Origin: Ascidiaceihabitans sp.
Lineage (GTDB): Bacteria > Pseudomonadota > Alphaproteobacteria > Rhodobacterales > Rhodobacteraceae
Direction of reading: 5' to 3'
Assembly (NCBI GenBank): GCA_029251465.1
Contig: JAQXDI010000055.1
Span: forward strand, 1 to 64,000
Length of the DNA stretch: 64,000 nucleotides
Shown: one piece after another, positions 8,751-50,586 of the stretch
How the letters are laid out: each line of letters starts with the position of its first letter
Numbering within the stretch: the first letter of the stretch is position 1
Notes under the pieces: model-generated
What the model saw: the letters and a program-made list of their open reading frames with translations, nothing else
Databases searched by the model: none
What the model was told of the DNA's origin: nothing
Position numbers and translations under genes: made by a program

Positions 8751-9710
8751 ATGGCAAACATCGGACGCGGTAAAATTTACGGCAACATCACTGAAACTGT
8801 CGGTGACACACCACTCGTACGGTTGGACAAGCTGGCCAAAGCCCACGGTGTTGGCGCGAACTTGTTGGCCAAGATTGAATTCTTTAACCCCACATCCTCG
8901 GTCAAGGACCGCATCGGCGTCGCCATGGTCGAAGCCATGGAGGCGAACGGCACGATCACCCCCGGCAAGACGACGCTGATCGAGCCGACCTCAGGCAACA
9001 CCGGCATCGGGTTGGCGTTGGCGGCGGCGGCCAAAGGCTATCGACTGATCCTGACCATGCCCGAAAGCATGTCGGTCGAGCGCCGCAAAATGTTTGCAAT
9101 CCTCGGGGCAGAAATGGAGCTGACAGAGGCCGCCAAAGGCATGAAAGGCGCTATTGCCAAGGCCGAAGAACTGGCCGCCTCGATCGGCGGGGCCGTCATT
9201 CCGCAGCAGTTTGAAAATCCGGCCAATCCGGCGATCCACCGCAAAACCACAGGACCCGAAATCTGGAATGACACCGGCGGCAAGGTCGACGTGTTTGTCT
9301 CGGGCATCGGAACGGGTGGCACGATCACCGGCGCAGGTGGCTATTTGAAAGGACAAAACCCGGACATTCACATCGTGGCGGTTGAGCCTAGCGATTCCCC
9401 CGTTTTGTCGGGCGGCAATCCAGGACCCCACAAAATCCAAGGGATCGGTGCGGGTTTTGAGCCCGCAATTCTGGACACCGGCATCTACGATGAGGTGATC
9501 ACCGTCACCAACGACGACGCATTCGCAACCGCCCGCGAGGTTGCCCGGATTGAAGGCGTGCCAGTCGGCATTTCATCAGGTGCTGCATTGATCGCTGCCA
9601 TTCAGCTGGGTCAGCGCCCTGAAATGGCTGGAAAAAACATCGTTGTTATCCTTGCCAGTTTCGCTGAGCGGTATTTGTCCACGCCATTGTTTGATGGGCT
9701 TGGCGAATGA
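8751..9710 (+). CDS. cysK: Cysteine synthase (O-acetylserine sulfhydrylase)
   Basis: A 319-residue PLP enzyme that makes cysteine from O-acetylserine and sulfide. The PLP lysine is Lys52 in NPTSSVKDR. The substrate loop [12 protein letters not shown] lies near 78-89, the phosphate-binding glycine loop is [10 protein letters not shown], and the C-terminal [10 protein letters not shown] and SFAERYLST motifs are present. The start at 8751 has AAAGGATC upstream and matches the family N-terminus. It converges with metR, with only 8 nt between the stops. It supplies sulfur amino acid biosynthesis, as does the neighbouring metR-metF pair. Confidence 0.95.
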
Positions 9711-9718
9711 ATTTTCGC

Positions 9719-10624
9719 TTAAGCTTCCTGCAATTTGCGCGCTTCAATCCGCGCTAGTTTGATCAATTCCTGCATGTAGGGTTTGTCGCGCTCGTCGCTG
9801 CGAATCGCTGCATACAGGCGTTTTGTGATCCCGTCTTTGGTCAGCGGGCGCGTGATGTAATCGGACGAATATATGACCTCGCGCACGACCCAATCGGGCA
9901 ACACCGACACCCCACGATTTGACGCCACAAGCAACAGGATGACGGCCGTCAGTTCGGCCTGACGCACAACAGCTGGCTCGACTTTGGCAGGGATCAGAAG
10001 TTCGCTGAACACGTCCAGACGGGTGCGTTCAACCGGATAGGTGATCAGGGTTTCGCCGCGAAAGTCAGTCGCATCAATGTAGTCCTTTTTTGCCAGCGGA
10101 TGATCCTTGGATGCCACAAAAACCGGCGCGTAATCAAAGAGTTCGATGAATTCGATGCCGGCCAGCTCCTCTGGGTCAGAGGACACAACCAGATCGACAT
10201 CTTCCTTCATCAGCGCGGGCAGTGCATCAAATGCCAGACCGGGCCGAATATCGACATCAACGTCACCCCAGTTTTTGCGAAACCGCTCAAGCACTGGAAA
10301 CAACCATTCAAAACAAGCGTGACATTCAATCGCGATGTGCATCCGACCCGAGCTGCCGTCGCGCAGGCCGGTGAAATCGTTCAGCGTTGCCTCGATTTGC
10401 GGCAGAACCTGATTGGCCAGTCGGAGCAATCGCAAGCCAGCCGCCGACAATCGCAGTGGTTTTGAGCGGCGTACAAACAATTCGACCCCCGCCTGATCCT
10501 CCAGCCCCTTGACCTGATGGCTCAGCGCACTTTGCGTGATGTGCAACTGATCCGCTGCCTTGGCCAACCCACCTGCCTCGTGAATTGCCTTGATCGTGCG
10601 CAGGTGGCGAAATTCGATATGCAT
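9719..10624 (-). CDS. metR: MetR-type LysR-family regulator
   Basis: A 301-residue LysR regulator. The N-terminal winged HTH (MHIEFRHLRTIKAIHEAGG, then AADQLHITQSALSHQVKGLE) and the effector domain with IECHACFEWLFPVLERFR are characteristic of MetR, which senses homocysteine and activates met genes. The start at 10624 matches the family N-terminus; an upstream in-frame extension to 10708 would run through the promoter region. It is divergent from metF, the expected target, with 87 bp between the starts. Confidence 0.9.
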   Translation of the reverse strand: MHIEFRHLRTIKAIHEAGGLAKAADQLHITQSALSHQVKGLEDQAGVELFVRRSKPLRLSAAGLRLLRLANQVLPQIEATLNDFTGLRDGSSGRMHIAIECHACFEWLFPVLERFRKNWGDVDVDIRPGLAFDALPALMKEDVDLVVSSDPEELAGIEFIELFDYAPVFVASKDHPLAKKDYIDATDFRGETLITYPVERTRLDVFSELLIPAKVEPAVVRQAELTAVILLLVASNRGVSVLPDWVVREVIYSSDYITRPLTKDGITKRLYAAIRSDERDKPYMQELIKLARIEARKLQEA

Positions 10625-41911: not shown

Positions 41912-43285
41912 TTAGTTGCGCAGGAACGCGTCCGAATATCCGGCACGGCGTACAGCAGTCAATTGCTGGGCTGCGTCACGTCCAAACGGACCAACCAAGA
42001 CCATGCGGTAGGTTTGCGCACCGCGCGTGTATTTACCGATCCGCACTGGCAACCCCATGCGCTGCAACTTTTTGGCGACGGTTTGCGCGTTGGATTGTGA
42101 CCCGTAGGTACCAACCTGAATGACTTGCGCAGCTGTTGCTTTGGGCGTTGCGCGGACTGCCGATTTGGGTGCGGGTTTAGGCACCGAACGGCTGGACAAC
42201 GTAGGCTGGCGCACAGCGGTGTTGGTGCGTGCTGAATTACGCTGAATGCGTTTCAGAACTTGGCCGTCACGGCGCACAATCGACACAACCCCCAGATCGC
42301 GGGTTTGGGTCGCCACATCCAGATACGGATAAACCAACGGCACAGTCGCCGTCACATCGCGCCCGCTGGATTGATTTATCAAGCGACGTGGCACGGTGCT
42401 GGTCCAGATCAGTTTGGTGGCTGCCTGACCGGCCAGCGATTGCTCGGCCCGGTTCGGGTTCAAACGGTCATCGTCCCAAATTCTGCGGTAGTCTTTTGGC
42501 ACGGGCAGGTTTTGCGTTTTTTGGCGCTGTATCAAAACATGTTTTGGCACGACACGGGTTGCCCCGTTAATCTGGTTGCCTTGCGCTTTGCCGTTATAGG
42601 TCTGGGCCGATGCCACACGACGTGCGGTTTGCTGTGCCGGCACAGCGCGACGACCAGTTGAGATCGCTTGAGTCTGCGGACCGCAGCGCACATTCTTACC
42701 CGTCAAGTAAAGCTGGCTAACAGCAGACGCACCGGCGCAAGCAGTTTGGCGGCGCACAGTCGGGGTCGTTGTTTTGCGCACCACTGGTTTAGGCTGAACC
42801 ACTTGCGCGGCTGGCGCAATCTGGACAGGCTTTGCAACTGCAACCTTGGCGGGCGCTTTGCGCACGGGTGTGCGGCGAATGATTGGTTTGCGCACAACTG
42901 CTGGTTTGGCCGCCGCAACAGCAACTGGCTTGCGCACTTTTGGCTTGGCCGCAGCAGTTGCTTTGGGCGTCGGATCGATCGTGATTTGAACTGGCGCTTT
43001 GACCGCAGGCGGCGGTGCCACCGTGGCCCTACGTGTCGTCAAAGACGGCTGCTGGTTGCAAATCTGATTGCGAGACCGCGTGACACGCGGCACCCACGTG
43101 ATGTTGCCGCTGATTCCCGCGCGTACAAACACGCAGCCACGGCTATCGACATACTGCGTGCTTTTGTAGCTGGCAGGCGGAAATTCAGCCGGTTGGCTCG
43201 CGTTTCGCAGGCTTTGCGCAGGCAGTGCCGCAACAACCGTCGATGCGGCAATAACAGCCAAAGCGATAACTCTAGTAATTTTCAT
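41912..43285 (-). CDS. Exported SPOR-domain protein with a Pro/Lys/Ala-rich linker
   Basis: A 457-residue protein: a signal peptide (1-24), a small Cys-containing N-terminal region (residues 45-80), a long basic low-complexity linker rich in Pro, Ala, Lys and Arg (about 85-200), another Cys-containing segment and, at about 385-457, a SPOR domain (VIQVGTYGSQSNAQTVAKKLQ, then YRMVLVGPFG). SPOR domains bind denuded glycan strands of septal peptidoglycan, so a cell-division or envelope role is likely. The linker would span the periplasm. It is a monocistronic gene. Confidence 0.88.
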   Translation of the reverse strand: MKITRVIALAVIAASTVVAALPAQSLRNASQPAEFPPASYKSTQYVDSRGCVFVRAGISGNITWVPRVTRSRNQICNQQPSLTTRRATVAPPPAVKAPVQITIDPTPKATAAAKPKVRKPVAVAAAKPAVVRKPIIRRTPVRKAPAKVAVAKPVQIAPAAQVVQPKPVVRKTTTPTVRRQTACAGASAVSQLYLTGKNVRCGPQTQAISTGRRAVPAQQTARRVASAQTYNGKAQGNQINGATRVVPKHVLIQRQKTQNLPVPKDYRRIWDDDRLNPNRAEQSLAGQAATKLIWTSTVPRRLINQSSGRDVTATVPLVYPYLDVATQTRDLGVVSIVRRDGQVLKRIQRNSARTNTAVRQPTLSSRSVPKPAPKSAVRATPKATAAQVIQVGTYGSQSNAQTVAKKLQRMGLPVRIGKYTRGAQTYRMVLVGPFGRDAAQQLTAVRRAGYSDAFLRN

Positions 43286-43366: not shown

Positions 43367-43999
43367 TTACTTGGTCCCGAACATCCGGTCGCCCGCATCG
43401 CCCAAACCCGGTACGATGTAGCCGACTTCGTTCAGCTTTTCATCGACCGAAGCGGTCACGATCGGCACATCGGGATGCGCCTCTTTCATGCGCGCGATTC
43501 CCTCAGGGGCGGCAAGCAAGCACAAGAACCGGATGTTGGTGGCCCCCGCCTCTTTTAGACGGTCAATCGCGGCGACCGAACTGTTGCCTGTGGCCAGCAT
43601 CGGATCCACGGCAATGACCAGACGATCTTCGATGCTTTCCGGGACCTTAAAGTAGTATTCAACCGGTTTTAGCGTTTCTTCGTCACGGTACAGACCCACA
43701 AAACCAACCCGCGCAGACGGGATCAATTCAAGCACCCCGTCAAGCAGACCGTTGCCCGCGCGCAAAATCGAAATCAAAGCCAGCTTTTTGCCGTCTAACG
43801 TGGGTGCATCCATTTCCTGCATCGGCGTTTCGATACGTTTGGTGGTCATCGGCAATCCGCGCGTGACCTCATAGGCCAGCAGTTGCGAAATCTCACGCAA
43901 TAACTGGCGAAAGACCGCTGTTGGCGTGTCCTTGTCCCGCATGATGGTCAGTTTGTGTTGCACCAACGGGTGATCAACGACGTTCAAATGCTCGGACAT
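43367..43999 (-). CDS. upp: Uracil phosphoribosyltransferase
   Basis: A 210-residue salvage enzyme making UMP from uracil and PRPP. The PRPP-binding motif [18 protein letters not shown] lies near 126-143, with [11 protein letters not shown] near 78-88 and [17 protein letters not shown] at the C-terminus. The start at 43999 has AAGGAG upstream and matches the family N-terminus. It is the last gene of the nucleoside salvage operon and follows deoB after an intercistronic hairpin. Confidence 0.95.
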
Positions 44000-44065: not shown

Positions 44066-45256
44066 TTATGTGATTTGAGGTGTCACACCCAAATGCGTAG
44101 CGATCAATTTTGCCACATCGACAAATCCGATGTGACCCAAATTTTGCAGCGCGCGCCCCGCCACCAACACTGGCACCCGTTCGCGTGTGTGATCAGTGCC
44201 AGCCCACGTTGGATCGTTGCCGTGATCAGCGGTCAGAACCATGATGTCGCTTGGCCGCATTTGCGCGATGATTTTGCCGATTTCGGCATCGAACCATTCC
44301 AGATGGCGCGCATAACCCGACACATCGCGGCGATGGCCAAACAAGCTGTCGAATTCGACAAAATTTGCAAAGGTCAGGCTGCCGTCGGCGGCATCTGCGA
44401 CTAAATCCGACAGATGCCCTATCAGGGTCGCATCCGCACCTTTGCGCACCTCGTCAAAGCCTTGCATCGTGAAGATATCGCCAATCTTGCCAATGCCGTA
44501 GACGTGGTGGCCCGCGTTTTGCACCCAATTGCTCAGCACGGGTGCTGGCGGCATGATTGCATAGTCGCGGCGATTGCCGGTCCGTTCAAACGCGCCTTGC
44601 TTGCCAACAAACGGACGCGCGATGACGCGGCCCACTTTCATGTCGTGCAACACGGGCGCAACGGTGGCGCAAAGATCCAGCAACCGATCTAGACCAAACG
44701 CATCCTCATGCGCTGCGATCTGAAACACACTGTCCGCCGAGGTATAACAAATCGGAAATCCGGTTTCCAAATGCTCTGCTCCAAAGCGCACCAACATATC
44801 GGTGCCCGACCCGTGGCAGTTGCCCAAAATCCCGGCCACACCCGCCGCGTCAAAGACAGCCTGCGTCACTTGATCGGGAAATGCGGGGGTCGTTTCTGGA
44901 AAATAATGCCAATCCCAAGGCACCGGCAAACCGGCAAGTTCCCAGTGGCCGGACGGGGTATCTTTGCCTTTTGACACTTCGGTTGCAGCGCCCCAACTGC
45001 CCGCTAGATCTACCGCGCGATCATTGGCCAACGCCTCTGCGGCCAAAATTCCCAAGCGGGTCAGGTTCGGGATATTCAATGGCCCGCTGCGATCCTGTTC
45101 GGCGCGACCCGCAGCGCAAGCCTGCGCAATATGGCCCAACGTATTGGCCCCGACATCAGGCAAATCACCATTGAAATAGGCGTCTGCATCGGGCGCACCG
45201 CCGATCCCGACAGAATCCATAACCACCAGAAACGCGCGCGCTTTTGGGTCAGGCAT
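44066..45256 (-). CDS. deoB: Phosphopentomutase
   Basis: A 396-residue Mn-dependent mutase that converts (deoxy)ribose-1-phosphate to the 5-phosphate. The metal sites appear in VVMDSVGIGGAPDA at the start and MVLTADHGNDPTWAGTDHTRERVPVL in parts near 333-358. Ser/Thr at the phosphorylation site lies in GKDTPSGHWEL near 94-104. Its ATG shares a base with the deoA stop (TAATG), so the genes are translationally coupled. Confidence 0.95.
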   Translation of the reverse strand: MPDPKARAFLVVMDSVGIGGAPDADAYFNGDLPDVGANTLGHIAQACAAGRAEQDRSGPLNIPNLTRLGILAAEALANDRAVDLAGSWGAATEVSKGKDTPSGHWELAGLPVPWDWHYFPETTPAFPDQVTQAVFDAAGVAGILGNCHGSGTDMLVRFGAEHLETGFPICYTSADSVFQIAAHEDAFGLDRLLDLCATVAPVLHDMKVGRVIARPFVGKQGAFERTGNRRDYAIMPPAPVLSNWVQNAGHHVYGIGKIGDIFTMQGFDEVRKGADATLIGHLSDLVADAADGSLTFANFVEFDSLFGHRRDVSGYARHLEWFDAEIGKIIAQMRPSDIMVLTADHGNDPTWAGTDHTRERVPVLVAGRALQNLGHIGFVDVAKLIATHLGVTPQIT

Positions 45257-46569
45257 TACCCGATCCTTTCGACAATCAAATCCGGGACCGTCGGCACCGA
45301 GGGCCCGATTTTGATCGCGCGGCGCAAAGCGGCTTCGGCTTGATCTGCGCGATCGGGGCGCCCTGCGTGGACCACGCCCAAAGGTTGCCCTTTGGTGACT
45401 TTGGCCCCTAATCGCACCACATCCGAAAACCCGACCGCAGGATTGATCCGGTCCGTTTCGACACGACGCCCGCCGCCCATTGCCACAACCGCCAGCCCCA
45501 AGGCCTCGCCATCAATTGCTGTGACGTAGCCCGATTGGGTCGCCGTCACTTCACGAATGACGGTGGCCTCTGGCAAGAAACGCGACCAGTTTTCTGTGAA
45601 CTGCACAGGGCCGCCCATCGCCGCAATCATCTTACCAAACCGCTCAGCCGCGCGGCCATCGCGGATCGCGGCGACGATCGCATGTGCCCCCGCTTGCACG
45701 TCATCCGCCAAGCCGCCATTTGCCAGCAGAACACCGCCCAATGCCGCGCAAATGTCGACCAAGGGCCCTTTGGGCGACGAGGTCAGGACGCGCATGACTT
45801 CGGCCACTTCCAACGCATTGCCGAGCGATGGCGCCAAGGGTTGGTTCATGTCACTGATGATCGCCGTCGTGCGGCAACCCGCAGCATTTGCGGTTTTGGT
45901 CAGCGCCTCGGCCAGCGCCTGCGCGGCCTTGAGATCTTTCATAAACGCGCCGCTGCCGAATTTTACGTCCAGCACCAGACCATCAAGCCCGCCCGCCAAT
46001 TTCTTGGACAAGATCGAGGCAGTGATCAGATCCATGCTTTCCACTGTCGCGGTCACGTCGCGCACCGCGTAAAGGCGTTTGTCCGCAGGCGCGATGTCAC
46101 CCGTGGCCCCAACAATCGCGCAACCTGTCGTGCGCACAACATCAGCAAACCGGTCCGCGCTTAGGTGCGTCGACACGCCAGGGATCGCGTCGAGTTTATC
46201 AAGCGTTCCGCCCGTATGCCCCAATCCACGCCCCGAAATCATTGGCACAAACGCACCGCAGGCCGCCAACGCAGGTGCCAAAATCAAGCTGACGCAATCG
46301 CCCACACCGCCCGTTGAATGTTTGTCCAGAACCGGCCCCGCCAAGTCCCATTTTAACACTGTACCGCTGTCACGCATTGCCATGGTCAACGCCACACGGC
46401 CCACATCGCCCAGCCCGTTCAGGCAGACAGCCATGGCAAAGGCACCGGCTTGCGCATCGCTGACGGTTTGATCGGCCAGCCCTTGCGCAAACCATGCCAA
46501 TTCTTCGCGGCCCGGCGTTTGGCGCTGGCGCAGCTTTGCAATGATGGCTTGGGCGGTGATCTCACTCAT
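45256..46569 (-). CDS. deoA: Thymidine phosphorylase
   Basis: A 437-residue enzyme that splits thymidine and deoxyuridine to base and deoxyribose-1-phosphate. The phosphate-binding signature is LDKHSTGGVGDCVSL near residues 82-96, followed by MISGRGLGHTGGTLDKLDAIPG in parts. The start at 46569 overlaps the cdd stop (ATGA). An upstream in-frame extension to 46719 is a reading of the cdd gene in another frame and is rejected. It works with DeoB to feed deoxyribose into central metabolism. Confidence 0.95.
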   Translation of the reverse strand: MSEITAQAIIAKLRQRQTPGREELAWFAQGLADQTVSDAQAGAFAMAVCLNGLGDVGRVALTMAMRDSGTVLKWDLAGPVLDKHSTGGVGDCVSLILAPALAACGAFVPMISGRGLGHTGGTLDKLDAIPGVSTHLSADRFADVVRTTGCAIVGATGDIAPADKRLYAVRDVTATVESMDLITASILSKKLAGGLDGLVLDVKFGSGAFMKDLKAAQALAEALTKTANAAGCRTTAIISDMNQPLAPSLGNALEVAEVMRVLTSSPKGPLVDICAALGGVLLANGGLADDVQAGAHAIVAAIRDGRAAERFGKMIAAMGGPVQFTENWSRFLPEATVIREVTATQSGYVTAIDGEALGLAVVAMGGGRRVETDRINPAVGFSDVVRLGAKVTKGQPLGVVHAGRPDRADQAEAALRRAIKIGPSVPTVPDLIVERIG

Positions 46570-46964
46570 TCTGGGGTATCTTCCATATGTCCGGCACCAA
46601 AGGCCCCAGGCAGCAGGGCATCCATGCGCATCGTGCTTTCTAGCCCACTGGTCGTCGCCATGTGCACAAGCACGTCGCCGTCGGCAAATTCCGCAAGCTT
46701 TTGACGGCACCCGCCGCACGGCGTGATCAGTTTTGATCCACCAGCGGCCACGTAGGCTTCGCTCAGGCGGGTTTCACCTGCGGCAATCATTGCGGCAATA
46801 GCCCCCGCTTCGGCGCAGGTTCCCTCGGGGTAGGCTGCATTTTCGACATTGCACCCGACGTAGACAGCGCCTGATTCTGCGCGAATAGCGGCCCCGACGT
46901 GGAATTTCGAATAAGGCGCATAAGCGTTATCACGCACCGCAAACGCCGCTTTTTTTAATGACAT
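46566..46964 (-). CDS. cdd: Cytidine deaminase
   Basis: A 132-residue tetrameric-type cytidine deaminase. The zinc ligands are Cys and the catalytic Glu in NVENAAYPEGTCAEAGAI near 46-63, and the Cys pair in TPCGGCRQKLAEF near 85-97. It converts (deoxy)cytidine to (deoxy)uridine, the substrate of DeoA. GGGGG lies about 6 nt before the ATG at 46964. It is 26 nt downstream of the VOC-bicupin gene and overlaps deoA. Confidence 0.95.
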   Translation of the reverse strand: MSLKKAAFAVRDNAYAPYSKFHVGAAIRAESGAVYVGCNVENAAYPEGTCAEAGAIAAMIAAGETRLSEAYVAAGGSKLITPCGGCRQKLAEFADGDVLVHMATTSGLESTMRMDALLPGAFGAGHMEDTPE

Positions 46965-46990
46965 TTTCGCCCCCAAATACTGCGCAGGCG

Positions 46991-48079
46991 CTAGGCCCCG
47001 ATCACCGTTTTAAACGCTGCTGGCAGTGACACCTCGAGCAGTTCCAAATCTGGCGAAGGGTCAGCATAGCGCGTCTTCATGTCGGGTGGAATAACAAACG
47101 CGTCGCCGGGCTCAAGAGGATAAGGATCGCGCCCTTCCCCCTCTAGCGTCATGGTGCCGTCCATCACGAAAGTGAACAGAATGTCCGTGCTGTGTTTGGT
47201 CCAATCGGGAGCACCATCGCCTGCGCGGATCACATGCACGCCTGCCACGTCATCGGTGTGCGCGGCAATTGTTGTGTCGCGGCTTTGAAAGCCCGGCACC
47301 CGAAACGGGGCCCAGGTTGCCTGATCAGCCTTGTGGTGCACAAAGCGTTGCCCGCTAAAGTCGCGCGATGGGTTCGCCGGCCCGTTTGGCAGCTCCATGT
47401 CGTGATCAATCGTGGTGACGTGTTCCGCAGGCACGCCAATTTCGATGACCTCGATATTGTCAGAGGCAAACAGCACACGGTGGCGGATTTCGGGGGGTTG
47501 GATCACGCAATTGCCGGCGTGCAGACGGAACGGTTCGCCTTGGTCCTCGTAGACCAGATCGACCCAGCCCCGGTAGCAGAAAATCAGTTGAAACCCGACA
47601 GTGTGGTAATGCACCATGTCCGGCACCGGGCCGCCGTCAGGGATACGAATGTGGCTGGCGATGATCGTGCCGCCCAAACGATCAGGGATCAAATCGCGGT
47701 AATGCATGCCCGCGCGCCCAATGACCCAAGGGGCCTGATCCGCAAGGCGTCGCACGACAAACGAATGCGCTGTCTGCGGCATCACCAGCGGCGGATTCAA
47801 TTCGGTGACGCCGATTTGTGTGCCGCCGGGCGAAGTCAGATCACGTGCGCCATCAGCAAAAGTGTCAGGTGCTGCGCAGCGAATGTTGATCTGCCCCGGT
47901 TCGCCCTTTTGCTCGGCATCCAAACGCACGGCCAGACCATGGCCCGAAAACACCGCGACACAAGGGTCATCCGCAGGATAGATCATATCCATTCGCATCC
48001 CCAAAATCTTGGTGAAAAACCCGATGTCGCCGCGCAAATCCATGCTCGGAAAACACACTTCTGCGCGTATATCTGTCAT
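46991..48079 (-). CDS. VOC (glyoxalase-like) plus double-cupin fusion protein
   Basis: A 362-residue protein from the ATG at 48079. Residues 1-75 resemble half of a VOC domain (VCFPSMDLRGDIGFFTKILGM in two parts, then VAVFSGHGLAVRLD). The first cupin covers about 130-235 (MVHYHTVGFQLIFCYRGWVDLVYEDQG in two parts, PPEIRHRVL). The second covers about 265-355 (VIRAGDGAP, ILFTFVMDGTMTLEGEG, LEPGDAFVIPPDM). The first cupin retains His-x-His metal ligands; the second lacks the first His pair. Such a fusion is unfamiliar to me. It heads the cdd-deoA-deoB-upp operon and is divergent from maeB, and it may process a product of nucleoside breakdown. Confidence 0.75.
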   Translation of the reverse strand: MTDIRAEVCFPSMDLRGDIGFFTKILGMRMDMIYPADDPCVAVFSGHGLAVRLDAEQKGEPGQINIRCAAPDTFADGARDLTSPGGTQIGVTELNPPLVMPQTAHSFVVRRLADQAPWVIGRAGMHYRDLIPDRLGGTIIASHIRIPDGGPVPDMVHYHTVGFQLIFCYRGWVDLVYEDQGEPFRLHAGNCVIQPPEIRHRVLFASDNIEVIEIGVPAEHVTTIDHDMELPNGPANPSRDFSGQRFVHHKADQATWAPFRVPGFQSRDTTIAAHTDDVAGVHVIRAGDGAPDWTKHSTDILFTFVMDGTMTLEGEGRDPYPLEPGDAFVIPPDMKTRYADPSPDLELLEVSLPAAFKTVIGA

Positions 48080-48171
48080 AAACTTGAACCTGATAGGCTC
48101 GTGGGACAATAGCAACCCATCAAGGGGCATCTTTTGGGCAAAAACACCAACGCACGGCTAACCTTGTTACG

Positions 48172-48192
48172 TGGCATTTTACCTGGCATTTT
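48172..48192. repeat. Direct repeat TGGCATTTT upstream of maeB
   Basis: Two copies of TGGCATTTT start at 48172 and 48184, 12 bp apart, in the divergent region between the VOC-bicupin gene and maeB. They may be regulator half-sites on roughly one face of the helix. Confidence 0.35.
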
Positions 48193-48269
48193 TGTAGCTT
48201 GGTCACGGCGATGCAAAATTCCGTGAAACTAAGCCAGTAAAATAAAGGTTATTGGCCAAAATGAAAAAA

Positions 48270-48287
48270 TAGTTTAACGCTAAACTA
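48270..48287. promoter_or_regulatory. Inverted repeat upstream of maeB
   Basis: TAGTTTA and TAAACTA form a perfect 7-bp inverted repeat around ACGC, 25 nt before the maeB start. It is a candidate operator or start-proximal hairpin. Confidence 0.4.
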
Positions 48288-48312
48288 AATCTGAAATCAG
48301 CCGGAGTATACG

Positions 48313-50586
48313 ATGTCCGATACACCAAACCTGCGCCAAGCCGCGCTCGATTATCACGAATTTCCGCGCCCTGGTAAGCTGGAGATTCGCGCAACCAAGC
48401 CTCTGGCGAACGGACGTGATCTGGCGCGCGCTTATTCACCGGGTGTTGCAGAGGCTTGTCTCGAAATCCAAAAGGACCCGACGACGGCGGCACGTTACAC
48501 GTCACGCGCCAATCTGGTTGCGGTCGTGAGCAACGGCACGGCTGTTCTAGGGCTGGGAAACATCGGGGCGCTGGCGTCAAAGCCGGTGATGGAGGGCAAG
48601 GCCGTCCTGTTCAAGAAGTTCGCCTCGATCGATTGTTTTGACATCGAAGTCGATGAAACGGACCCGGAAAAACTGGCCGACATCGTCTGCGCGCTGGAAC
48701 CGTCCTTTGGCGCGATCAACCTTGAAGACATCAAAGCGCCCGACTGTTTCATCGTTGAAAAAATCTGCCGCGAGCGCATGGGCATTCCGGTGTTTCACGA
48801 TGACCAGCACGGCACAGCGATTGTTGTGGGCGCTGCGGCCACAAACGCCTTGCACGTTGCGGGTAAGAAATTCGAAGACATCAAGATCGTCTCCACCGGT
48901 GGCGGGGCTGCGGGTATTGCCTGCCTCAACATGCTACTTAAAATGGGTGTGAAACGCGAAAACATTTGGCTCTGCGACATTCACGGGCTGGTTTACGAGG
49001 GCCGCGAGGTCGACATGAACCCTGCCAAGTCTGCCTTTGCCCAAAGCTCGGACAAGCGCACGCTAAATGACGTGATCGACGGCGCTGACATGTTCCTTGG
49101 GCTGTCTGGTCCCGGTGTTCTGACCCAAGATCACGTCAAACGCATGACCAAACAACCCATCGTGTTTGCCCTTGCCAATCCGACGCCCGAAATCCTGCCT
49201 GACCTTGTGCGTGAGGTAGCCACCGATGCGATCATCGCCACAGGTCGCAGCGATTTCCCCAATCAAGTCAACAACGTACTGTGTTTTCCATTCATCTTTC
49301 GTGGGGCTTTGGATGTCGGCGCGACCACCATCAACGACGAAATGCAGCTGGCTTGTATCGACGGTATTGCAGCCCTTGCGCGCGCCACGACCTCGGCCGA
49401 AGCCGCCGCTGCGTATCAGGGTGAGCAGATGACATTCGGGGTCGATTATTTGATCCCCAAACCCTTTGATCCGCGTCTTGTTGGCATTGTCAGCTCTGCC
49501 GTCGCACGTGCGGCGATGGAAACCGGCGTTGCCACACGACCCATCGAAGACCTTGAGGCGTATAAAACCAAACTCGACGGGTCCGTTTTCAAATCAGCCT
49601 TGTTGATGCGCCCCGTTTTCGAGGCCGCCCGCACGACCCCGCGTCGCATCGTGTTTGCCGAGGGCGAAGACGAACGCGTCTTGCGCGCCGCCCAAGCCAT
49701 GATTGAGGAAACCGCCGAGCGCCCGATTTTGATAGGTCGCCCAGACGTCATTGAGCAGCGGATCGAGCGCGCAGGCCTGACGATCAAACTGGGCGAACAA
49801 GTCGATCTGGTGAACCCGCAAAACGATCCGCGCTACCGCGATTACTGGGAAACCTATCATTCGCTGATGGCTCGCCGCGGTGTTACCCCTGACCTGGCCC
49901 GCGCCATTATGCGCACCAATACGACTGCAATTGGCGCGGTGATGGTGCACCGAGACGAAGCCGACAGTCTGATCTGCGGCACCTTTGGTGAGTTCCGTTG
50001 GCACATGAATTATGCCGCACAAATCCTTGGGCGCGGTGATCTGCACCCTGTGGGCGCGCTGTCGATGATGATCCTAGAAGACGGCCCGCTGTTCATCGCC
50101 GACACGCATGTGCACACAGAGCCGACGCCGCAACAGCTTGCTGAAATCGTGATCGGGGCTGCCCGTCACGTTCGCCGCTTTGGTCTAGATCCGCAAATCG
50201 CCCTGTGTTCGCATTCGCAATTTGGCAACCAACCAACTGGCACCGGGGCGCAAGCGCGCGCAGCACTCAAAATCCTGGACGCAGGTGGCCACGATTTCAC
50301 GTATGATGGCGAGATGAACATCGACACCGCACTTGATCCGGAATTGCGCGCCCGCATCATGCCCGAAGGTCGCCTGAACGGGGCTGCAAATGTGCTGGTC
50401 TTTGCCCACGCAGATGCCGCATCAGGGGTGCGCAACATTCTGAAAATGAAGGGCGGCGGGCTAGAGGTTGGTCCGATTTTGATGGGCATGGGCAACAAAG
50501 TTCACATCGTATCGCCGTCAATTACTGCGCGCGGCCTGCTGAATATGGGGGCCGTCGCAGGCACGCCAGTCGCCCATTACGGTTAA
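48313..50586 (+). CDS. maeB: NADP-dependent malic enzyme with C-terminal phosphotransacetylase-like domain
   Basis: A 757-residue enzyme. The N-terminal malic domain ([42 protein letters not shown]) and NAD(P)-binding domain ([15 protein letters not shown]) cover about 1-410. A phosphotransacetylase-like domain covers about 430-757 ([36 protein letters not shown] in parts). The latter is regulatory (acetyl-CoA sensing) in MaeB enzymes and usually inactive. It converts malate to pyruvate and makes NADPH, which is important during growth on acetate or fatty acids. GGAG precedes the ATG. Confidence 0.95.

Follow-up and report, generated by a model that had tools for sequence, protein, structure and literature searches.

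Cupin metalloenzymes with a His3-Gln site, among them KdgF, the BacB/AerE proteins and (R)-hydroxynitrile lyase (the (R)-mandelonitrile lyase type), carry out isomerisation or lyase chemistry. KdgF is a single small cupin that catalyses a ketonisation reaction; BacB and AerE, whose ligands are His-His-Gln-His, are bicupin isomerases with a biosynthetic context. A further bicupin, the quercetin 2,3-dioxygenase YxaG, has three histidines and a glutamate as fourth ligand.

The protein analysed here, VC (VOC-cupin-cupin), joins a VOC domain to two cupins and represents a conserved, unnamed protein family. In agreement with the initial annotation, which knew of no account of this fusion, literature searches covering titles and abstract openings (in part the best 10-12 of many records) returned no description of it. 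To our knowledge the kynABU set described for kynurenine breakdown does not include VC.

The VC gene and its locus

The window, the whole 64,000-nucleotide stretch of DNA that was analysed, carries VC on the minus strand at 46991..48079, stop codon included, as defined by the open reading frame, domain searches and predicted structure. Translation from the ATG at 48079 gives 362 amino acids, and from an ATG further upstream, at 48130, 379; most relatives align from the 48079 start. On the same strand follow cdd (cytidine deaminase, 46566..46964, with its ATG at 46964), deoA (thymidine phosphorylase, 45256..46569), deoB (phosphopentomutase, 44066..45256) and upp (uracil phosphoribosyltransferase, 43367..43999), each over the cut-off of at least one NCBIfam equivalog model. 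The gap between VC and cdd is 26 nt (46965-46990), and the open reading frame coordinates bear out the initial placement of VC directly ahead of cdd-deoA-deoB-upp. On the other side of VC a gene that by eye encodes a maeB-type malic enzyme runs divergently (48313..50586, plus strand). A scan of 46500-48500 for promoters and terminators gave nothing that exceeds the shuffled expectation.

Orthologues of VC share 78-84% identity within the genus and 59-80% in other genera of the window's family. Beyond upp, at 41912-43285, lies a gene whose position is kept in many relatives; its product is rich in alanine, proline and lysine and, judged by eye, may end in a SPOR domain.

A VOC domain joined to a bicupin

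The AlphaFold model of full-length VC (pLDDT 96.7) comprises a VOC domain and a bicupin. The N-terminal VOC (glyoxalase-like) domain, residues 1-104 (47768..48079, minus strand), was assigned by profile and predicted structure. Pfam finds no match in this part of the window's protein; of 81 relatives, 16 match Glyoxalase PF00903 at E ≤ 0.01, and a profile of the N-terminal part finds glyoxalase I (E 0.0024). When residues 1-106 were modelled separately (pLDDT 94.5) and compared to the PDB with Foldseek, the top matches were members of the VOC superfamily (FosB, FosA, glyoxalase and bleomycin-binding proteins; E 3.9e-5 and weaker). The model has the paired beta-alpha-beta-beta-beta modules of that superfamily, the second in abbreviated form (DSSP). 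Candidate metal ligands of the domain vary among relatives (E7 is present in 68 of 81, H47 is replaced in many, and no strictly conserved ligand set was seen), so that it probably has a structural or ligand-binding role.

Cupin 1 (about residues 106-235; 47375..47764, minus strand), delimited from alignments and predicted structure, is the most conserved part of VC; cupin 2 (about residues 243-362; 46994..47353, minus strand) is marked by Pfam, alignments and predicted structure. Cupin_2 matches VC in two stretches (Pfam, E 6.5e-15), and model residues 102-362, two tandem cupin barrels, align to bicupins with Z 19-23.5. Together with the PF00903 matches of relatives and the AlphaFold and Foldseek results, these matches confirm the VOC-like N-terminus and two cupins first recognised from the sequence.

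Family models say little more: Pfam reports generic cupins only, no NCBIfam model comes near its cut-off, and PHROGs gives no match. (R)-mandelonitrile lyase (NF049940; 18.6 bits against a cut-off of 140) and (S)-ureidoglycine aminohydrolase (TIGR03214; 11.8 bits against 200) were rejected as identities of VC. Among solved structures, cupin 1 is like 2o8q, a protein listed as hypothetical (sequence E 6.6e-18, profile E 6.2e-25), and the two have an HxH....Q....H pattern in common; 2o8q, however, is a single cupin that has neither the VOC domain nor the second cupin. KdgF (5fq0) gives a weak sequence match (E 0.0035) to cupin 2, that is, to the cupin that is without a metal site; its own His3-Gln site resembles that of cupin 1. 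AerE (5zbf), listed under a title that mentions an aromatic oxo acid as bound ligand, is a bicupin like VC (Z 19.1 over 203 residues), but at 210 residues and 11% identity it aligns to the bicupin part only.

The nearest solved fold to the VC bicupin is that of YxaG (1y3t, 2h0v; Z 23.5 over 243 residues), and salicylate 1,2-dioxygenase is also near (Z 20.4). These likenesses speak for a reading of VC as a non-heme tryptophan- or ring-cleaving dioxygenase that replaces tryptophan 2,3-dioxygenase (TDO) or 3-hydroxyanthranilate dioxygenase. YxaG, however, is 15% identical and aligns to the bicupin part only, and the oxygenase likeness is one of fold; VC has a glutamine where quercetinases have their fourth-ligand glutamate, and its second cupin has no complete site.

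An invariant four-residue site in cupin 1

The metal-type site of cupin 1, located by alignment, consists of His157, His159, Gln164 and His200 (codons within 47480..47611, minus strand). All four residues are present in 81 of 81 aligned, diverse VC relatives, which thereby fit the HxH....Q plus distal His pattern of His3-Gln cupin metalloenzymes; we infer that the site binds a metal. Also invariant in the alignment are Arg122, Tyr127, Arg128, Asp129, Tyr177, Gln194, Glu213 and His220. Cupin 2, as read from the alignments, is without an equivalent complete site.

Proteins encoded beside nucleoside (deo) genes and those encoded beside kynurenine-type (kyn) genes differ at position 162, which is Gly in 21 of 23 deo-linked rows and Arg in 4 of 8 kyn-linked rows; most of 28 other compared positions are alike between them. 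The invariant site and the mostly alike positions suggest similar substrates in both groups.

Distribution of VC

Of 394 genomes sampled from the window's family, 146 have VC; this count was obtained from 160 matches by removing by hand 14 partial ones (E 1e-21 or weaker), and it includes three genomes with VC in pieces (G020, G033, G415). In G020 and G033 maeB is also broken, as is acs in G020, so that the apparent split of VC there is probably an assembly error. Near-full-length relatives are present in other alphaproteobacterial families as well, and the best 80 of 579 matches, many of them metagenome bins, include records titled Gamma- and Betaproteobacteria, Acidobacteria, Bacteroidota families, Marinimicrobia, Dehalococcoidia, Latescibacterota and Polyangia. 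Relatives at ≥80% coverage lie on four plasmids; these four annotated full-length records are named only 'cupin domain-containing protein'.

For the analysis of neighbourhoods 196 loci were collected, 195 of which have VC. The 189 VC proteins extracted include 184 distinct ones, since five genomes entered twice, from different sources (L035/L222, L038/L210, L139/L267, L142/L213 and L177/L266). One of the duplicated records, L210 (WNWL01000001.1; 71% GC), is titled Oceanobacillus sp. HTM 045 and has a VC identical to that of G015 C292 (L038), from the window's family; the record is probably misnamed or contaminated.

The nucleoside neighbourhood is probably an inherited position

The location of VC might mean that it is an enzyme of nucleoside catabolism, acting on deoxyribose or ribose phosphate, on its aldehyde breakdown product, or on a damaged base. 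The initial annotation had proposed just such a role, on a nucleoside-derived sugar or base, and had asked whether linkage to deoA-type genes extends to relatives. It does: in the window's family, 74 of 96 loci have cdd, deoA, deoB and upp beside VC, and in 71 of these a divergent maeB flanks VC at its other end. deoA itself is commoner in genomes with VC (143 of 146) than in those without (223 of 248).

The best independent support comes from locus L186 of G658, a divergent marine alphaproteobacterium (a relative of G658 in the same family matches MarineAlpha2_Bin1). Here a VC with 31% identity stands 8 nt after deoA, at the end of an operon that reads ABC permease, cdd, purine nucleoside phosphorylase, deoC, aldehyde dehydrogenase, deoA, VC (cdd and deoA named by tblastn, the others by eye). 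The host DNA (L186:3-8050) is of low GC, and the aldehyde dehydrogenase-like protein is unusually long (795 aa), looking by eye like two copies in one chain.

The phylogeny nonetheless tells against a nucleoside enzyme. A single supported (starred) group of 65 rows holds 51 of the 52 deo-linked rows (on a smaller tree, a group of 34 holds 22 of 23), which means that the linkage is essentially one inherited placement. The spacing of the genes tells a similar story: the gap between VC and cdd is ≤50 nt in 36 of 86 loci but >100 nt in 32, reaching 1017 nt, whereas that between cdd and deoA is ≤50 nt in 86 of 86 (never >100 nt) and that between deoA and deoB ≤50 nt in 85 of 85, all figures containing small constant offsets. 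Judged from gaps alone, VC does not keep the tight co-transcription geometry across relatives that is expected of an operon member.

VC and deo genes also occur apart. deoA is present in 366 of the 394 family genomes, 223 of which are without VC, and in 22 of the 96 family loci VC is kept without deo neighbours. A case in point is G097, where the deo operon is intact after VC left it (L190) and VC adjoins a kynureninase-like gene elsewhere (L128). Over all VC loci, 104 of 195 are without a deo gene within 8 kb, and in 23 of these kynurenine-type genes recur. A role on nucleoside-derived compounds is thus not supported, and we consider it unlikely. The link is real within the clade; because several relatives elsewhere adjoin genes of tryptophan breakdown, it is probably a long-kept address rather than a pathway.

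Neighbourhoods outside the nucleoside operon

Within 8 kb of VC, 91 of the 195 loci have deo genes, 23 have kynurenine-type genes, 7 have maeB alone and 74 have none of these, so that 81 of the 104 non-deo loci have neither the deo nor the kynurenine set; the kynurenine-type labels rest on tblastn, with curated models run on some loci. Close partners, defined as genes on the same strand within about 110 bp of VC, were sought in 100 of the 104; the other four were left out because they have no clean full-length VC. The search yielded 62 partners in 58 loci. The largest cluster, comprising kynureninase, kynureninase-like and cyclase (formamidase-type) proteins, accounts for 13 of the 100 loci (87 have no such partner); next is an XRE-type regulator with five, of which the one member scanned, in L233, carries a cupin, and every other partner recurs at most twice.

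Kynureninase, a neighbour of VC and not a homologue, is thus of the commonest enzyme type among these partners. Model TIGR01814 (cut-off 246.4 bits) is exceeded by genes that adjoin VC in L185, L221, L244 and L271 and by one about 1.1 kb away in L174; the genes in L233 and L265 score 221.0 and 211.2 bits. In L214 TDO lies 62 bp upstream of VC (385.3 bits against a cut-off of 390.7). Three further loci have, beside VC, a class-V PLP (kynureninase-like) domain fused to a cyclase-type domain in a protein of 663-680 aa (L143:4912-6921, L228:5898-7940, L235:5958-7949), as established with Pfam for L143 (PF04199, the cyclase-type domain); L228 and L235 also have an M20-type gene near VC (L235 scanned).

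The kynurenine link arose repeatedly. On the smaller tree, where 8 rows carry the label, 8 changes are needed to explain it, and starred branches force at least 5 of them; on the expanded tree, with a label compiled by hand for 18 rows, it requires 14 changes, at least 7 of them forced. By our own estimate, chance would put a given single-copy gene in the adjacent position in about 1 genome in 2000. Many loci share lineages and so do not count as independent cases.

Two Paraburkholderia plasmids carry a further arrangement in which M20 peptidase, MFS, class-V PLP and VC genes stand beside a LysR regulator, with a porin gene in the same set (L325:5960-11059, L326:5905-13024); one of the two also has an SDR and a dienelactone hydrolase. 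The set looks catabolic, and we know of no name for it. Its class-V PLP enzyme shares 45% identity with the PLP enzyme adjacent to VC in L128. To kynureninase the PLP enzymes of the two plasmids bear only a distant likeness, with 57.6 and 63.7 bits against the TIGR01814 cut-off of 246.4.

Most non-deo loci have very diverse neighbours, many of them, as elsewhere outside the window, named by eye. By eye these include a PfkB sugar-kinase-like gene and TRAP genes; there are also acyl-CoA ligases, a Rieske oxygenase, a Lin0512-family gene and peptide ABC transporters, the last named by eye in some loci and annotated in others. Such diversity, the occurrence of both deo and kyn operons, and the variation at position 162 would fit a general clean-up or multi-substrate family, in which the chemistry of cupin 1 is fixed and the substrate is clade-specific (nucleoside-, kynurenine- or sugar-acid-derived); with a substrate that differs between clades, no single pathway would describe VC. 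Against this, the four-residue site does not vary, most of the other compared positions are alike and one theme leads among the close partners. We regard a multi-substrate family as doubtful, if a serious contender.

In SAR116 genomes the Lin0512-family gene stands directly before VC (L232:3124-3498, where the model is over its cut-off, and L259:7599-7979).

Co-occurrence with tryptophan-breakdown enzymes

Kynureninase is present in 138 of 146 family genomes with VC and in 185 of 248 without (these counts and those for deoA, over 394 genomes, were made by hand). deoA is enriched about as strongly, and the two therefore do not discriminate. A second comparison drew on 35 genomes with VC and 35 without, hand-picked from the 394 and all positive for kynureninase at E ≤ 1e-40; the former are the window's genome (91% complete) and 34 at ≥99%, the latter all ≥99% complete. 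With kinship ignored in all three tests, TDO is found in 29 of 35 genomes with VC against 10 of 35 without (Fisher p 9e-6), HAAO in 12 against 2 (p 0.006; G163, one of the 12, scores below the cut-off of the model) and hmgA, which served as control, in 28 against 21 (p 0.12). In the window's genome kynU, TDO and HAAO lie together on contig C37.

These data bear on VC as a replacement dioxygenase. TDO was not found in 8 of 25 searched genomes, mostly ones in which VC is linked to kynurenine-type genes (G658, G663, G439, G739, G790, G792, G793 and G796); in the last four, whose completeness was not reported, VC adjoins kynureninase, as expected if it stood in for TDO. Yet VC and TDO go together and adjoin in L214, and HAAO co-occurs with VC as well. 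An obligatory TDO substitute is accordingly rejected, and with the ligand difference noted above we hold a replacement dioxygenase of either kind to be very improbable.

We also rejected VC as the missing kynurenine formamidase. Canonical kynB (TIGR03035) is absent from genomes with and without VC alike (0 of 35 each; 3 of 80 overall). In L303 TDO has beside it an alpha/beta hydrolase (Abhydrolase_3 in Pfam), which we take to be AFMID-type. A similar hydrolase is present at E ≤ 1e-10 in all 37 genomes searched, of which 22 have VC; its weakest match is in the window's own genome (E 6.5e-17), and it adjoins TDO in six genomes that have VC (G016, G066, G073, G078, G108 and G145).

A tentative role for VC

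From the architecture, predicted fold, conserved site, distribution, gene neighbourhoods and co-occurrence with TDO we infer both a reaction type and a pathway. The reading we tentatively prefer, at a little less than an even chance, is that VC is a cupin-1 metalloenzyme of tryptophan/kynurenine-type amino-acid catabolism. It would be a soluble enzyme with its active site in cupin 1, the metal being held by His157, His159, His200 and Gln164, while the VOC domain and the metal-less cupin 2 would shape the pocket or the oligomer. Its substrate would be a compound made or used next to enzymes of the kynureninase superfamily. The likeliest chemistry, as in other His3-Gln cupins, would be a non-redox isomerisation, tautomerisation or hydrolysis; ring-cleaving oxygenation would come second. 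In the window's lineage VC may have settled between maeB and cdd and been inherited there, in which case the nucleoside operon is an address and probably not the pathway. Counting against the kynurenine reading are the L186 operon, in a genome (G658) where TDO was not found, the 8 of 25 searched genomes that showed no TDO, the 81 non-deo loci with neither gene set, the 87 of 100 that have no close kynurenine-type partner, the enrichment of deoA and the difference at position 162; in addition, the pathway has no visibly missing step.

A widespread family, whose four annotated full-length records bear only the name 'cupin domain-containing protein', thereby gains a testable pathway; should the kynurenine reading hold, a previously unrecognised step is added to tryptophan/kynurenine-type breakdown in marine bacteria. 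The case also illustrates that gene neighbours, however stably kept, can mislead as to the pathway, and that lineages in which the gene moved give a different answer.

A more specific, and quite unlikely, version is that VC defines an undescribed catabolic module of alphaproteobacterial chromosomes and betaproteobacterial plasmids. Besides VC, the module would comprise an importer, an M20 or DUF2817 amidase and a C-C hydrolase of the kynureninase family, in some cases joined in one protein with a hydrolase of the cyclase family. Its substrates would be tryptophan residues in modified form, such as tryptophan/formylkynurenine that is N-acylated, peptide-bound or photo-oxidised and comes from protein in seawater. 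VC would isomerise or hydrolyse the oxidised side chain to yield a substrate of kynureninase.

Further cupin genes

Three additional cupin genes came to light. In L173 a second copy of VC, truncated at its N-terminus to the cupins only (9683-10309), lies about 1.3 kb after the full-length gene. In a genome without VC, a small cupin gene (L300:6709-7158) stands directly downstream of TDO and beside an AMP-binding ligase. Finally, a single-cupin relative of cupin 1 is located between what appear by eye to be two propionyl-CoA carboxylase genes in three family genomes (L041, L042 and L043); in the window's genome it lies at G000 C30:31899-32201.
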